From the NCBI RefSeq assembly GCF_036322585.1, contig NZ_AP024600.1, positions 1,674,001 through 1,738,000 on the forward strand: 64,000 bases of DNA, in the 5' to 3' direction. Source of the DNA: Luteolibacter sp. LG18. GTDB lineage: Bacteria; Verrucomicrobiota; Verrucomicrobiia; Verrucomicrobiales; Akkermansiaceae. This document shows, one piece after another, positions 57,829 to 64,000 of the stretch. A model generated the notes under the pieces. It did not search any database and was not told where the DNA came from. It saw only the letters and a program-made list of their open reading frames with translations. The stretch's first letter is position 1; the number at the start of each line of letters is the position of its first letter. The position numbers and the translations under genes were made by a program.

Positions 57829-58335
57829 TCAATAGCGCAAAGATTGATCGAGGCAAGCCATTATCTCCTTTCCGCAAAGGTATGCCTTCTTTACCTCTGC
57901 ATAACTTGCATTTGTGGGGAGCCTGCCTGCATGGGCAAATTCATTTCTCCAAGTTATTAGATTTCCGTAACTCGATATAAAGCTCACCCTGCGAGATGCA
58001 AGATTGGCTCTTTCTAATTTTTCAATTTTCTTTTTGAATCTAATAACATATTTATCTCCAAATTTTGCAAGATAATCTTCGCGAATGGTTTTTAAACCGA
58101 TTTTTCCATTAATTCGGTCAAAAAACGAGGCGCAAAAGCATCCAAGTACTTTGTGTTTTTTGGCCGAGAAATCATTAAATATAGTTTTAATCGACAGCTC
58201 GAGAACTGTTACCGCGCTGACAGCAATGAATCCTGTATAACGAGATTGGATGAACGGGTCTCGAATCGCTGCTACCACCGTATCTAGATGGGCGATCAGA
58301 TCATCGGTAAGTCTGAAATGGTCAGTATACGGCAT
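57829..58335 (-). CDS. HEPN domain protein (MAE_28990-like), putative RNase
   Basis: 168 residues, helical throughout. Near the C-terminus WRNEFAHAG carries Arg130 and His135, the RX4H motif of metal-independent HEPN ribonucleases. The first half (FIAVSAVTVLELSIKTIFNDF) fits the first HEPN helices. It starts 7 bases after the DUF262 gene stop, so the two are one operon. HEPN RNases act as toxins or defence effectors in many systems. The AT-rich composition marks it as foreign. RNase activity is inferred from the motif alone. Confidence 0.85.
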   Translation of the reverse strand: MPYTDHFRLTDDLIAHLDTVVAAIRDPFIQSRYTGFIAVSAVTVLELSIKTIFNDFSAKKHKVLGCFCASFFDRINGKIGLKTIREDYLAKFGDKYVIRFKKKIEKLERANLASRRVSFISSYGNLITWRNEFAHAGRLPTNASYAEVKKAYLCGKEIMACLDQSLRY

Positions 58336-58342
58336 ATTCCAA

Positions 58343-59416
58343 TCACTTGATCAAATGGTTTGAGGTTGCCTCGAAGCGCCTCTTAACAACTGACAAATCA
58401 CTCGTGCTATAGAACGTGGTCTCACTAAATGTGGGGTCCTTTTTCAGGCGATCATATCTAGCTTGGAGGTCTATTGGGATTTTGCCTTTGAAGGACAAGA
58501 GAATTCCGAAAACTGAATCCAAAGCAGAAGAGTTTAGACGGCCTCGGATATGGAATGGTTTTGCACCTAGGCGAGCGACTATTAATTCAGCTATCTTAGG
58601 AAAATGCTCTTCAAAAGAAGCCACTTGCTTTGATGTGCCTTTTTTCTCTCGAGCCATAACTCGATTTAGAAATTCCTTCATAGGTTTTTCATAATCTTCA
58701 AAGAAATATGACAGGCCAAAGATTCTCAATATCAATTCTACGTCCTTTTGGTGTTTATCTAAATTATTCTTTCCAATGATGGAGCGCCAATTTTTATCAG
58801 CATTGAGCTTTCTTAATATCGAGACAAATTTTCCACGGAAAACGCAGTTCCGGATCTCCTGTGGTTTGAGCGGAGTTCCTCCAGTATTCAATCTTTCAAA
58901 AATATGATAAATGCTGGTTGGTTCTCCTAATGGGTTCAGTTGACGGATATTGATAGCTCTTAAGACTGCCCCTCGAAGTTTACGTTGACTAGATTCACTC
59001 AAATCTTCGAACCGTTTTTTATGAAAAGGACTTGATTCGTCTAAACCTTGCAATCTGAACACTTGTTTTTTCCCGTGGATATTTTCATCTCCGAAGTATC
59101 CATTCATGTAATAAACAACGCTTGTTATGCGCTGTTGGCCGTCGATAACTTGACTCTTGTTCTGCTCGTCGACGTAAAAGAATACTTGAGGGATGGGGAG
59201 TCCTATCAAAAACGATTCTATCAACAACGAAGACTGCTTAATGTTCCAAACAAAATTTCTTTGGAATTCCGGGATGAGAATTTCATCGTTTGACCACATC
59301 TCATATATGACACTCAAAGTGAGATCAGAAGGGTAAGAAGCTATGTCATATTTAATGCTGACTTCAGCGTCTTCTGTTTCTTCAAATACTTCGAGATCTT
59401 CATTTTCGTCATCCAT
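58343..59416 (-). CDS. DUF262 (GmrSD N-terminal-like) protein
   Basis: 357 residues. After an acidic start, PEFQRNFVW (49-57) and IDGQQRITS (91-99) are the DUF262 hallmarks, related to ParB/Srx-like folds; the DGQQR motif is needed for nucleotide-dependent activity in GmrSD, SspE and BrxU. ERLNTGGTPLKPQEIRN follows. No DUF1524/HNH nuclease domain is present at the C-terminus, so this protein probably senses or regulates while the adjacent HEPN protein acts. First gene of the operon, with an inverted repeat about 55-105 bases upstream. Confidence 0.9.
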   Translation of the reverse strand: MDDENEDLEVFEETEDAEVSIKYDIASYPSDLTLSVIYEMWSNDEILIPEFQRNFVWNIKQSSLLIESFLIGLPIPQVFFYVDEQNKSQVIDGQQRITSVVYYMNGYFGDENIHGKKQVFRLQGLDESSPFHKKRFEDLSESSQRKLRGAVLRAINIRQLNPLGEPTSIYHIFERLNTGGTPLKPQEIRNCVFRGKFVSILRKLNADKNWRSIIGKNNLDKHQKDVELILRIFGLSYFFEDYEKPMKEFLNRVMAREKKGTSKQVASFEEHFPKIAELIVARLGAKPFHIRGRLNSSALDSVFGILLSFKGKIPIDLQARYDRLKKDPTFSETTFYSTSDLSVVKRRFEATSNHLIK

Positions 59417-60904: not shown

Positions 60905-60976
60905 GCCGCTCTTTGATGGCGTGCCGATGAGATGAAGAACGGGACAGGAATGTCCCTACTCCCAGTTAGGGCAGAA

Positions 60977-62776
60977 TCAATCCCCCGACTTCAGCACCTT
61001 GATGAAGGCGTCCTGGGGGATGTTGACCTTGCCGAACATCTTCATCTTCTTCTTACCTTCCTTCTGCTTCTCGAGGAGCTTGCGCTTGCGGGTGATGTCG
61101 CCGCCGTAGCACTTGGCGGTGACGTTCTTGCGCATGGCGCTGATGCTCTCGCGGGCGACGATCTTGCCGCCGACGGCGGCCTGGATGGCGACGACGAAGA
61201 GGTGGGCGGGAATGACTTCCTTGAGCTTGCCGGCGAGGACGCGGCCGTACGACTCGGCCTTGTCGCGGTGGACGATGGTGGAGAAGGCCTCGACCGGATC
61301 ACCGGCGATGAGCATGTCCATCTTCACCATGTTGGCCGGGCGGTAGCCGGCGTGCTCGTAGTCCATCGAGCCGTAGCCGCGGGTCATGGACTTCAGCTTG
61401 TCGTTGAAGTCGACGAGGATTTCGCCGAGCGGGAGGACGCAGGAGAGCATGACGCGCATGTCGTCGATGGTCTCGGTGTTGGTGACCTCGCCGCGCTTTT
61501 CGAGGACGAGCTGCATCATGTCACCGATGTAGTCGCCGGGGACCATGATGTAGACGTTCACGACGGGCTCGCGGATCTCCTGGATGACCTGGGTTTCCGG
61601 GAAGAAGGTGGGATTGTCCACGATCAGCTCCGAGCCATCCGTGAGCGTGACCTGGTAGATCACGGACGGGTAGGTGGAGATCACGTCCATGTTGAACTCA
61701 CGGCGCAGGCGCTCCTGGATGATCTCCATGTGGAGCAGGCCGAGGAAGCCGCAGCGGAAGCCGAAGCCGAGGGCGGTGGAGCTTTCCGAGCCGTAGGTGA
61801 AGGCGGCGTCGTTGATCTGGAGCTTGGCCATGGCGGCCTTGAGCGCCTCGTAGTCGGAGGATTCCACCGGGTAGATGCCCGAGAAGACCATCGGCTGGAT
61901 CTCCTTGTAGCCGGGGAGCGGCTCCGGGCAGGGGTGGGTGTTGTCGGTGATGGTATCGCCGATCTTCGCCTCATCGGCGGATTTCATGTTGGCGATCACG
62001 TAGCCCACATCCCCGGCGACGAGCTGGGGGCGGGCGCTCATCTTCGGGGTGAAGACGCCCACTTCCTTGACCTCGTAGGTCTTGCCGGTGTGCATCAGCT
62101 TGATGCGTTGGCCCTTTTTCACGGAGCCGGAGAAGACGCGGACGTAGGAGACCACGCCGCGGTAGGTGTCGTAGATGGAATCGAAGACCGAGCAGCGCAG
62201 CAGCTTGTCCGGGTTCTCGACCGGGGCCGGGACGCGTGCGACGACGGCTTCGAGGATGTCGATGATGCCGATGCCGGCCTTCGCGGAGGCGGGGATGGCG
62301 TCCTCGCCGGGGATGGCGAGGATGTCCTCGAGCTGGCGGCGGCACTTCTCGACGTCGGCGGCGGGGAGGTCGATCTTGTTGAGGACCGGGATGATGACGA
62401 GGTTCTGGGCGTGGGCGAGGTGGAGGTTCGCCACGGTCTGGGCCTCCACGCCCTGGGCGGCGTCCACCATCAGGATCGCGCCCTCGCAGGCGGCCAGCGA
62501 GCGGGCAACCTCGTAGGAGAAGTCGACGTGACCGGGCGTGTCCAACAGGTTGAGCTTGTAGGTCTTGCCGTCCTTGGCCTTGTACTCCATCGCCACCGGG
62601 TGGGACTTGATGGTGATGCCCTTCTCGCGCTCCAGGTCCATGGCGTCGAGGAGCTGCTCCTTTTCGTCGCGCTGGGCCACGGTATTGGTCGCGCCCATGA
62701 GGCGGTCGGACAGCGTGGTCTTCCCGTGATCGATGTGGGCGATGATCGAGAAATTGCGTGTCAGGCTGGTAGGCAT
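60977..62776 (-). CDS. lepA: Elongation factor 4 (LepA)
   Basis: 599 residues from the ATG at 62776, the same length as E. coli LepA; the open frame extends upstream to 62854 but the family begins here. GTPase motifs: AHIDHGKTT (G1), DTPGHVDF (G3), NKIDLPAAD (G4). The EF4-specific C-terminal part (YGGDITRKRKLLEKQKEGKKKMKMFGKVNIPQDAFIKVL) is complete. LepA back-translocates or remodels stalled ribosomes. The gene diverges from the kinase-like gene across 155 bases. Confidence 0.97.
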   Translation of the reverse strand: MPTSLTRNFSIIAHIDHGKTTLSDRLMGATNTVAQRDEKEQLLDAMDLEREKGITIKSHPVAMEYKAKDGKTYKLNLLDTPGHVDFSYEVARSLAACEGAILMVDAAQGVEAQTVANLHLAHAQNLVIIPVLNKIDLPAADVEKCRRQLEDILAIPGEDAIPASAKAGIGIIDILEAVVARVPAPVENPDKLLRCSVFDSIYDTYRGVVSYVRVFSGSVKKGQRIKLMHTGKTYEVKEVGVFTPKMSARPQLVAGDVGYVIANMKSADEAKIGDTITDNTHPCPEPLPGYKEIQPMVFSGIYPVESSDYEALKAAMAKLQINDAAFTYGSESSTALGFGFRCGFLGLLHMEIIQERLRREFNMDVISTYPSVIYQVTLTDGSELIVDNPTFFPETQVIQEIREPVVNVYIMVPGDYIGDMMQLVLEKRGEVTNTETIDDMRVMLSCVLPLGEILVDFNDKLKSMTRGYGSMDYEHAGYRPANMVKMDMLIAGDPVEAFSTIVHRDKAESYGRVLAGKLKEVIPAHLFVVAIQAAVGGKIVARESISAMRKNVTAKCYGGDITRKRKLLEKQKEGKKKMKMFGKVNIPQDAFIKVLKSGD

Positions 62777-62880
62777 GGTGTTACGGGGACCGGGACAGGG
62801 CGGAAAAAGCGTGCGGGAGGGGCGGAAGAGAAGCACGAAATCGCTGAAAGGCACGCAAAATTACAGCCTGTATACCCGGA

Positions 62881-62900
62881 CCGCCACGCCGCAGTGGCGG
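62881..62900. promoter_or_regulatory. Hairpin in the lepA/kinase-like divergent region
   Basis: CCGCCAC and GTGGCGG form a perfect 7-base-pair stem around a six-base loop, about 32 bases before the GTG start at 62932. It may be a palindromic operator or an RNA hairpin in the leader of the kinase-like gene. Confidence 0.35.
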
Positions 62901-62931
62901 AATCGTCAAACCTTTGCTAGGAACAACAGAA

Positions 62932-64000
62932 GTGAGCCAGCGATTCCAGATTGAAGAACTTGTGGCGCAGGACGAGCACGGCGTCGTCTTCCATGCCACG
63001 GACAGCGAAACCGGCGGCGAGGTGGCGGTGCGGCGGATTTTCCCGTTCGGCGCGGACGGCGGCGGCCTCAATGAGGAGCAGCGCGCCACCTATGAGGCCA
63101 GCATCGGTAAATTCGCTGCCGTGAAGCACGCCGGGCTGCGCACGGTGGTCGGCGGCGGCTGCGATCCGGTCGATGGCATGCCGTTCCTCGCCACCGAGTG
63201 GGTCGAGGGGCCCACGCTGGCGCAGGCCATGGAGCGCGGCCCGATCGCCGCGGCGTCCGTGGTGGCGCTCATGGAGCGGGCCCTGGAGGTCTGCGTGGAG
63301 CTTTCCAAGGCCCTCCAGGAGGAGGAAACCGTGTGGATCGAAACCTCGCCCTCCGCGATCATCGTCAGCACGGAGGATGCCTCCCGCGGCTTCACCTTCT
63401 GGGTCGGGCCGCTGAAATGGCTCAACGAGGCCAATGGCAAGCGCGGCCTGGCCCCGCTGGCGAAGTTGCTGCGCACCGTGCTCGCCCAGCCGCACCCGGA
63501 TGACGACCCGGGCGTGCTGGAGATCCTCCAGAATTTCAGCCGCTGGCTCGATAAATACTCCGAGCTCGCCGAGATCCCGCAGGCGCAGGAGTCGATGAAG
63601 GAATTCTTCGCCCCGCTGAGCGCCGGGGTGCCCCGTTCGGTGCCGCCCGGCCCGCGTCCGGTGATGGCCGCCCGCCCGGGTGCCACCACCCAGCCGGCCG
63701 CGCGTCCCGCCGCTCCCACCAATCGCGCCCCGGCCGTCCAGACCGCCGCACCGGTGGTGAAGCCGCCGGGCATGGCCAGCGCCGCCGAGCCCGAGCCGAC
63801 CCAGATGGGCGGCTACCCGGTCCCGGTGCCGAAGAAAAAGTCGCTGATGCCGCTGGTGACCATCGCCGTGGCCGCCGTCTGCCTTTCCGCCGCGGGCTAC
63901 CAGGTTTACCGCTTCCAGCAGGCGAAGAAGAGCAAGGCCGCGGCCACCTCGACCGCCGATGATCCCACGAAGGGCCTCTCGGACTCGATCGCCCGCGCCG
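62932..64000 (+). CDS. Kinase-like (pseudokinase) membrane protein, partial
   Basis: The frame opens with GTG at 62932 and runs to the window end (356 residues seen). Residues 1-150 look like the N-lobe of a Ser/Thr kinase (VSQRFQIEELVAQDEHGVVFHATDSETGGEVAVRRIFPFG; FLATEWVEGPTLAQAME). The ATP-contacting Lys of VAVK is Arg34 here, and the expected HRD/DFG motifs are missing (IETSPSAIIVSTED), so catalysis is unlikely. A Pro/Ala-rich linker (about 225-300) and a membrane segment (about 304-326, LMPLVTIAVAAVCLSAAGYQVYRF) follow. Probably a membrane-anchored pseudokinase; the rest lies outside the window. Confidence 0.8.
   Translation, partial: MSQRFQIEELVAQDEHGVVFHATDSETGGEVAVRRIFPFGADGGGLNEEQRATYEASIGKFAAVKHAGLRTVVGGGCDPVDGMPFLATEWVEGPTLAQAMERGPIAAASVVALMERALEVCVELSKALQEEETVWIETSPSAIIVSTEDASRGFTFWVGPLKWLNEANGKRGLAPLAKLLRTVLAQPHPDDDPGVLEILQNFSRWLDKYSELAEIPQAQESMKEFFAPLSAGVPRSVPPGPRPVMAARPGATTQPAARPAAPTNRAPAVQTAAPVVKPPGMASAAEPEPTQMGGYPVPVPKKKSLMPLVTIAVAAVCLSAAGYQVYRFQQAKKSKAAATSTADDPTKGLSDSIARA

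Follow-up and report, generated by a model that had tools for sequence, protein, structure and literature searches.

A predicted membrane-anchored pseudokinase family of the Akkermansiaceae, a candidate non-catalytic scaffold, exemplified by Luteolibacter sp. LG18

The right-hand end of the window (the whole stretch of 64,000 nucleotides from Luteolibacter sp. LG18 analysed here) carries a gene whose product was described, in a preliminary description, as kinase-like in its glycine-rich loop and N-lobe strands but devoid of catalytic motifs. Is this protein a true member of the kinase fold that has lost catalysis, and if so, for what might a membrane-anchored dead kinase be kept? The reading frame that begins at GTG 62932 stays open to the end of the window. 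The genome consists of one contig of 5.8 Mb, on which the full gene encodes 496 aa and, counting its stop codon, reaches window-equivalent 64422, which is 422 bases beyond the window. TTG 62914 is an alternative start; aligned relatives start close to the position of GTG 62932, their own starts having been chosen by nearness to it. The gene is indeed divergent from lepA, with 155 bp between the inferred starts. The features of the locus are as follows.

62932..64000, + strand, continuing to window-equivalent 64422: pseudokinase gene, codons 1-356 of 496 in the window
62919..62922, + strand: AGGA, a probable ribosome-binding site lying 9 nt ahead of GTG 62932 (sequence reading)
62932..63621, + strand: pseudokinase domain, residues 1-230 (profile and fold comparison)
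62965..62982, + strand: degenerate glycine loop, residues 12-17 (AQDEHG), with Q13, D14 and G17 conserved (alignment)
63031..63036, + strand: R34, standing where VAIK has its lysine, followed by R35 (R in 64/64 members; alignment)
63334..63357, + strand: pseudo-catalytic loop, residues 135-142, WIETSPSA for HRDxKPxN (alignment)
63394..63402, + strand: pseudo-DFG, TFW, residues 155-157 (alignment)
63622..63840, + strand: Pro/Ala-rich linker, residues 231-303 (sequence)
63841..63897, + strand: predicted membrane helix, residues 304-322 (hydropathy peak 1.98)
63898..64000, + strand: start of a second Pro-rich linker, the C-terminal domain (GTWKYF...) lying beyond the window
60977..62776, - strand: lepA, the divergent neighbour, taken to begin with the ATG of MPTSLTRNF

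Kinase homology is all but invisible in single sequences. Pfam finds no kinase in the window protein, the sole match being DSHCT at 0.03, and neither Pfam nor NCBIfam reports a kinase above cut-off in any single protein scanned. Across 64 members Pfam gives weak matches only, to APH in eight (best 0.0013) and to Pkinase in one (0.029). Searched alone against PDB sequences with phmmer, the window protein retrieves a designed protein first (0.016) and Staphylococcus aureus PknB at 0.07. A profile of 64 members, made from the window domain plus 63 of the 65 named relatives (L102, which is split, and L112, which lacks its start, were excluded), matches PDB chains of S. aureus PknB at 2.2e-7 and Mycobacterium tuberculosis PknB at 5e-5. 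The homology of the N-terminal domain to kinases thus exceeds chance.

The predicted structure leads to the same place. AlphaFold2, given the 64-member alignment, produces a model of high confidence (pLDDT 91.3, pTM 0.87), for which the top Foldseek matches are M. tuberculosis PknB and PknA (E 3e-10). Superposition with VIA-align on PknA, PknI and PknB yields Z scores of 16-18, the value being 17.7 both for PknA (212 residues, 3.2 A) and for PknI (210 residues, 3.6 A). A Z of 8 is reached by 996 of the 1000 chains compared, all 1000 of which were Foldseek's own matches. By computation, then, the N-terminal domain is a Hanks kinase fold, as profile, model and superposition agree, and the preliminary idea of a kinase-like fold, for which an unrelated predicted fold would have been fatal, stands.

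The catalytic residues are a different matter. The 64 pseudokinase domains were aligned with 11 kinase domains from the same genome, picked from 14 Pkinase matches (13 of them above cut-off; L130, L131 and L132 were excluded); since these 11 were chosen for an HRDxKxxN-type motif, their HRD columns are canonical by construction. The VAIK lysine is present in 11/11 active kinases and 0/64 pseudokinases (R in 54, Q in 8, S in 1, E in 1), the alphaC glutamate in 10/11 and 0/64 (A in 46), the HRD aspartate in 11/11 and 10/64 (E in 45), the catalytic-loop asparagine in 11/11 and 1/64, and the DFG aspartate in 11/11 and 0/64 (T in 44). The second glycine of the glycine loop has become aspartate in 63/64 pseudokinases. 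Alignment of the 64-member profile to PDB chains pairs the same columns at the lysine, HRD and DFG sites. In the window protein itself the VAIK lysine, the HRD aspartate and the DFG aspartate are all missing, the residues standing there being R34 (VAVR for VAVK, as first noticed), WIE at 135-137 and TFW at 155-157. Only 16 residues separate TFW (157) from the next long helix of the model (174-184), in a C-lobe whose alignment is unsure, and the activation segment therefore appears to have been cut out.

The window gene is thus almost certainly a pseudokinase gene, and the original assignment as a membrane-anchored pseudokinase is borne out by the profile, the fold and the motif counts in 64 members. 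Canonical motifs in orthologues would have spoken against it; the lysine and the DFG aspartate occur in none, though ten have an aspartate at the HRD position. A second proposal of the preliminary description, nucleotide binding without catalysis, fares worse. On this account the domain would still bind nucleotide and switch without catalysis, or would have gained a new ATP-dependent activity like those of SelO and SidJ; R34 (R in 54/64 members) might replace the lysine, and an acidic residue persists at the position of the HRD aspartate (E in 45, D in 10 of 64). We consider it quite unlikely, with the alphaC glutamate and DFG aspartate absent from all 64 members, the catalytic-loop asparagine present in one, and a loop glycine replaced by aspartate in 63. 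SidJ and SelO, according to a 2025 review of bacterial pseudokinases (PMC12599244), keep a lysine in the VAIK position and a DFG-like aspartate, unlike the present family. From these alignments, ATP binding by the domain is unlikely.

Loss of the catalytic residues has not released the gene from selection. In nine pairs of close relatives, dN/dS (NG86, first 238 codons) is 0.09-0.25, the pairs among L052, L053 and L056 and two with L075 sharing members and so not being independent. Between the window domain and its nearest relative (G244, 75% identical) the values are 0.17/0.65, a ratio of about 0.26, and between the C-terminal pieces of the same two proteins 0.28/0.86, about 0.33. With 0.09-0.27 in ten pairs overall, the gene is being kept, and the pseudokinase domain is under purifying selection. 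A decaying pseudogene or chance reading frame is scarcely credible: five loci (L079, L083, L089, L095, L099) look truncated or shifted, but 7/16 genera carry the gene and the dN/dS range is that just given.

Conservation within the domain is uneven. Positions conserved in at least 95% of members number 18/93 in residues 1-93 and 6/137 in residues 94-230, and the invariant columns (I7, Q13, G17, R35, G75, D78, D81, P84) all precede residue 94. The alphaC stretch (46-64) has 0/19 positions at 95%, although it lies within the N-lobe. The residues that we take to form the PknB dimer (R10, L33, D76) are only partly mirrored in the family (R4 in 92%), so a PknB-like dimer of the pseudokinase stays a guess.

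How widely is the family found? A contig scan returned 65 distinct loci, all with Verrucomicrobia titles, which in many cases name Akkermansiaceae, Luteolibacter, Haloferula or Roseibacillus. With the family profile at E 1e-25, the pseudokinase is present in 88/244 genomes of the window's family, in 7/16 genera, three of the 88 carriers having two copies. In the genus of the window, 56 of the 69 genomes among the rows listed match and 13 do not. Class-wide, 16/286 genomes match, all from the window's family; outside that family there is no match among the 286 genomes of the class. A separate tally of 59/61 mixes in N-lobe matches to active kinases and is no orthologue count. Genus g2, with small, complete genomes, gave no match in any of its 18 listed rows; we take it to be Akkermansia itself. 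Six pseudokinase loci are titled Akkermansia (L095, L096, L105, L106, L107, L109), and we suppose these to be loosely named MAGs. By profile search, therefore, this is a family-wide pseudokinase of the Akkermansiaceae.

The domain sits at the N-terminus of a predicted single-pass membrane protein. The layout first noted, a Pro-rich linker followed by a membrane helix, is present, with the helix at residues 304-322; it is followed by a second Pro-rich linker, which starts inside the window, and by a small C-terminal domain that lies outside it. Beyond residue 190, 61/65 proteins (64 loci and the window protein; L102 was too short and was excluded) have a 19-residue segment whose mean hydropathy is 1.6 or higher. 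Basic residues flanking the helix predominate on the N side in 38 of 65 proteins and on the C side in nine, and are balanced in 18; the window protein, with three on the N side and four on the C side, belongs to the nine. Hydropathy and this weak charge bias suggest that the kinase fold is likely cytosolic and the C-terminal domain likely outside, in the periplasm. One 287-aa relative (L022, in genome G009) ends soon after the membrane helix and has no outer domain.

Most relatives share one type of outer domain. A profile of 42 C-terminal domains (A4; threshold E < 0.01) finds it in 53/66 proteins (65 named loci and the window protein), most of which had themselves gone into the profile. The domain is missing from 12 named loci: six stop where their contig ends, L102 is split, with its OB part located in another frame, and five look shifted or shortened; the window protein is the thirteenth. 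An AlphaFold model of the A4 domain (pLDDT 86.8) matches aspartyl- and asparaginyl-tRNA synthetases in Foldseek (2e-5, TM by query about 0.6) and, further down, OBody, an engineered OB domain, and CST chains. From the known structures of these synthetases, we take the matching part to be their OB domain. Pfam support is only suggestive, tRNA_anti-codon being found at 0.005 in one of five proteins scanned. The outer domain of most relatives is thus predicted to be an OB-fold, a fold that by itself gives no function. Two OB domains seem to be present in L088, L115 and L116, and are called by the profile in L088 and L116; in L115 and L116 (the latter titled Roseibacillus persicicus) the pseudokinase C-lobe is shorter.

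The window protein ends differently. Its C-terminal piece of 86 residues, beginning GNSPILGTWKYF, has no Pfam match at E up to 10, and its matches to PDB sequences are at chance level (best 0.43). A domain of this type occurs in 2/73 genomes of the genus (L118 and L002:5163-5420, 64% identical to each other). Judging from its GTW start, it may be a small lipocalin-like barrel. With a different C-terminal domain in the window lineage, the pseudokinase seems to have been retained through an exchange of outer domains. This bears on the view that the kinase-like domain is merely a stable cytosolic anchor or relic and that the outer domain does the work. The view draws on the single type of outer domain in 53/66 proteins and on the variable C-lobe, but conservation is higher in the N-lobe than in the C-lobe, purifying selection acts on the domain, and it is the outer domain that differs in the window lineage; we regard it as unlikely.

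The preliminary description compared this layout to PknB-type kinases, and at the level of topology the comparison is sound. PknB, PknA, PknI and Stk1 share fold and topology with the window protein and are its nearest relatives by sequence profile and structure; in the window family, however, the catalytic residues are lost, no PASTA repeats were found and the C-lobe is shortened, and the likeness in layout is one of topology only. A peptidoglycan-binding pseudokinase of the PknB/PASTA kind would have just this order of kinase fold, Pro-rich stretch, single helix and outer domain, but Pfam detects neither PASTA nor any further kind of wall-binding domain in the full-length protein, the NCBIfam PASTA kinase model scores 17 bits against a cut-off of 450, and the outer domain of most relatives is a predicted OB-fold. 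The peptidoglycan binding suggested earlier is therefore unsupported, and we judge it very unlikely.

A closer parallel may be EssB/YukC of type VIIb secretion in Firmicutes, in which, according to the available text of PMC9600267, a pseudokinase domain (3-206) is followed by a helix (220-243) and an outer domain (244-384), and in which YukC does not bind ATP and contacts the FHA of the ATPase. Its kinase-fold domain of about 205 residues has degraded motifs and glycine loop and a reduced activation loop, as the window domain appears to have (PMC9600267; PMC12599244, available text). The order of pseudokinase, membrane helix and outer domain (about 140 residues in EssB/YukC) is the same here, where the topology is predicted only, but the EssB/YukC outer domain is helical, in contrast to the OB-fold or other small domain predicted here (PMC9600267). 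The YukC profile PF10140 has no match in the full protein (E up to 10), nor has YukC in the window genome, with B. subtilis as positive control.

MviN of M. tuberculosis (ActPs3) offers a second parallel: in the available text of PMC12599244, its phosphorylated tail recruits FhaA in a scaffold role. Three lost motifs, a membrane helix C-terminal to the domain and a small outer domain are common to MviN and the window protein, which, as in ActPs3, has lost all three catalytic motifs. The MviN domain, however, is fused to MurJ, whereas here it is part of a separate gene of 496 aa. MviN is not among the listed PDB matches of the profile search or of VIA-align, which excludes nothing. The same source counts five wholly pseudokinase families among 42 bacterial kinase families and treats seven; its main text holds no word beginning Verrucomicrob. 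The GLW motif that stands for HRD in some pseudokinases is not found here, the corresponding columns holding W (62/64), then V, L, I or A, then E (45/64). The comparison with described pseudokinases covered the profile and layout of EssB/YukC, the motif loss and layout of MviN (ActPs3) and the GLW motif. A search of open-licence PMC literature showed no description of the present family among the papers listed.

Among the best-scoring active kinases is an L122-type kinase of the same genome (G000:C1:2142943, 582 aa), which reads VAIKR where the window protein reads VAVRR; its HRD and DFG motifs are canonical, unlike those of the pseudokinase family. A tree in which 18 pseudokinases were set beside 19 motif-bearing kinases (11 from this genome, 8 from others) does not show the descent from such a kinase that this likeness might suggest. 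In it, one branch (100/100) sets off the pseudokinases and another (97/95) the L122-type kinases. L131 of the same genome may be a second, unrelated pseudokinase: its Pkinase match is above cut-off at 53.5 bits and AVK is present, but a simple pattern search of its long frame found no HxDxxxxN.

Gene context across the 65 loci reveals no constant partner. lepA is the divergent neighbour in only 13/65 loci, 71 to 957 bases away, four of which also have the window's ABC transporter genes downstream; some loci are short contigs. A CBM9-like gene (CBM9_2 at 3e-4, below cut-off, in one representative) lies directly upstream on the same strand in 27/65 loci, at 50-90 bp in 21 of the 27, and in the window genome it is about 26 kb from the pseudokinase gene. 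As general rules, fixed operons with lepA or with the CBM9-like gene are accordingly rejected. Other neighbours (one representative each) are DUF1287, a DUF3482 GTPase, RecG, Maf and CinA. A MurJ gene lies about 3 kb downstream of the pseudokinase gene in the window genome, but an MviN-like link through it was likewise set aside, MurJ being close by in just L055 (same arrangement) and L079 (other side) of the 65 loci. Elsewhere in the window (57829-59416, - strand), a GmrSD_N (DUF262) protein (Pfam 1e-29) and, next after it and equally oriented, a RiboL-PSP-HEPN protein (2e-19) resemble a defence or toxin-antitoxin-like pair. The 662-aa frame that is open opposite lepA (60932-62920, + strand) and abounds in D, E, H, L, G and V is most likely an artefact, read antisense, of high G+C codon usage.

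What might the protein do? Because it has been kept by relatives in one bacterial family, it is probably a docking or signalling hub and not an enzyme. We propose, with a probability of roughly 60%, that it is a single-pass membrane pseudokinase acting as a non-catalytic scaffold or receptor. The kinase-like domain would lie in the cytosol, connected by the membrane helix to a periplasmic C-terminal domain that would sense or hold an envelope component. The N-lobe residues Q13, D14, G17, R35, G75, D78, D81 and P84 would form the face on which a cytosolic partner docks; a candidate partner is any of the 13 Pkinase-type domains that score above cut-off in this genome, another an FHA protein, on the model of MviN and YukC. 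As in EssB/YukC or the MviN tail, an envelope domain would be linked to a cytosolic partner, here through the conserved N-lobe.

By analogy with these systems we tentatively extend the proposal, at rather less than even odds. This candidate family, found here only in Akkermansiaceae and not recognisably described in the available text of PMC12599244, might be the hub of a transmembrane signalling complex in which the envelope is read by a periplasmic domain, either the OB-fold or its replacement, and an active Hanks kinase or an FHA protein is recruited by invariant residues of the N-lobe; kinase-dead scaffolds of the EssB/MviN type might then have arisen again in Verrucomicrobia.

Few bacterial pseudokinases have a known role, and two well-studied membrane examples are EssB/YukC, in secretion, and MviN, in wall synthesis. 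The present gene is spread over seven genera and is single-copy in 85/88 carriers. As the members scanned escape the Pfam and NCBIfam kinase cut-offs, automatic annotation likely leaves it unnamed. With an outer domain that varies by lineage and N-lobe residues that are fixed, the family may serve as a natural experiment on docking by a dead kinase.
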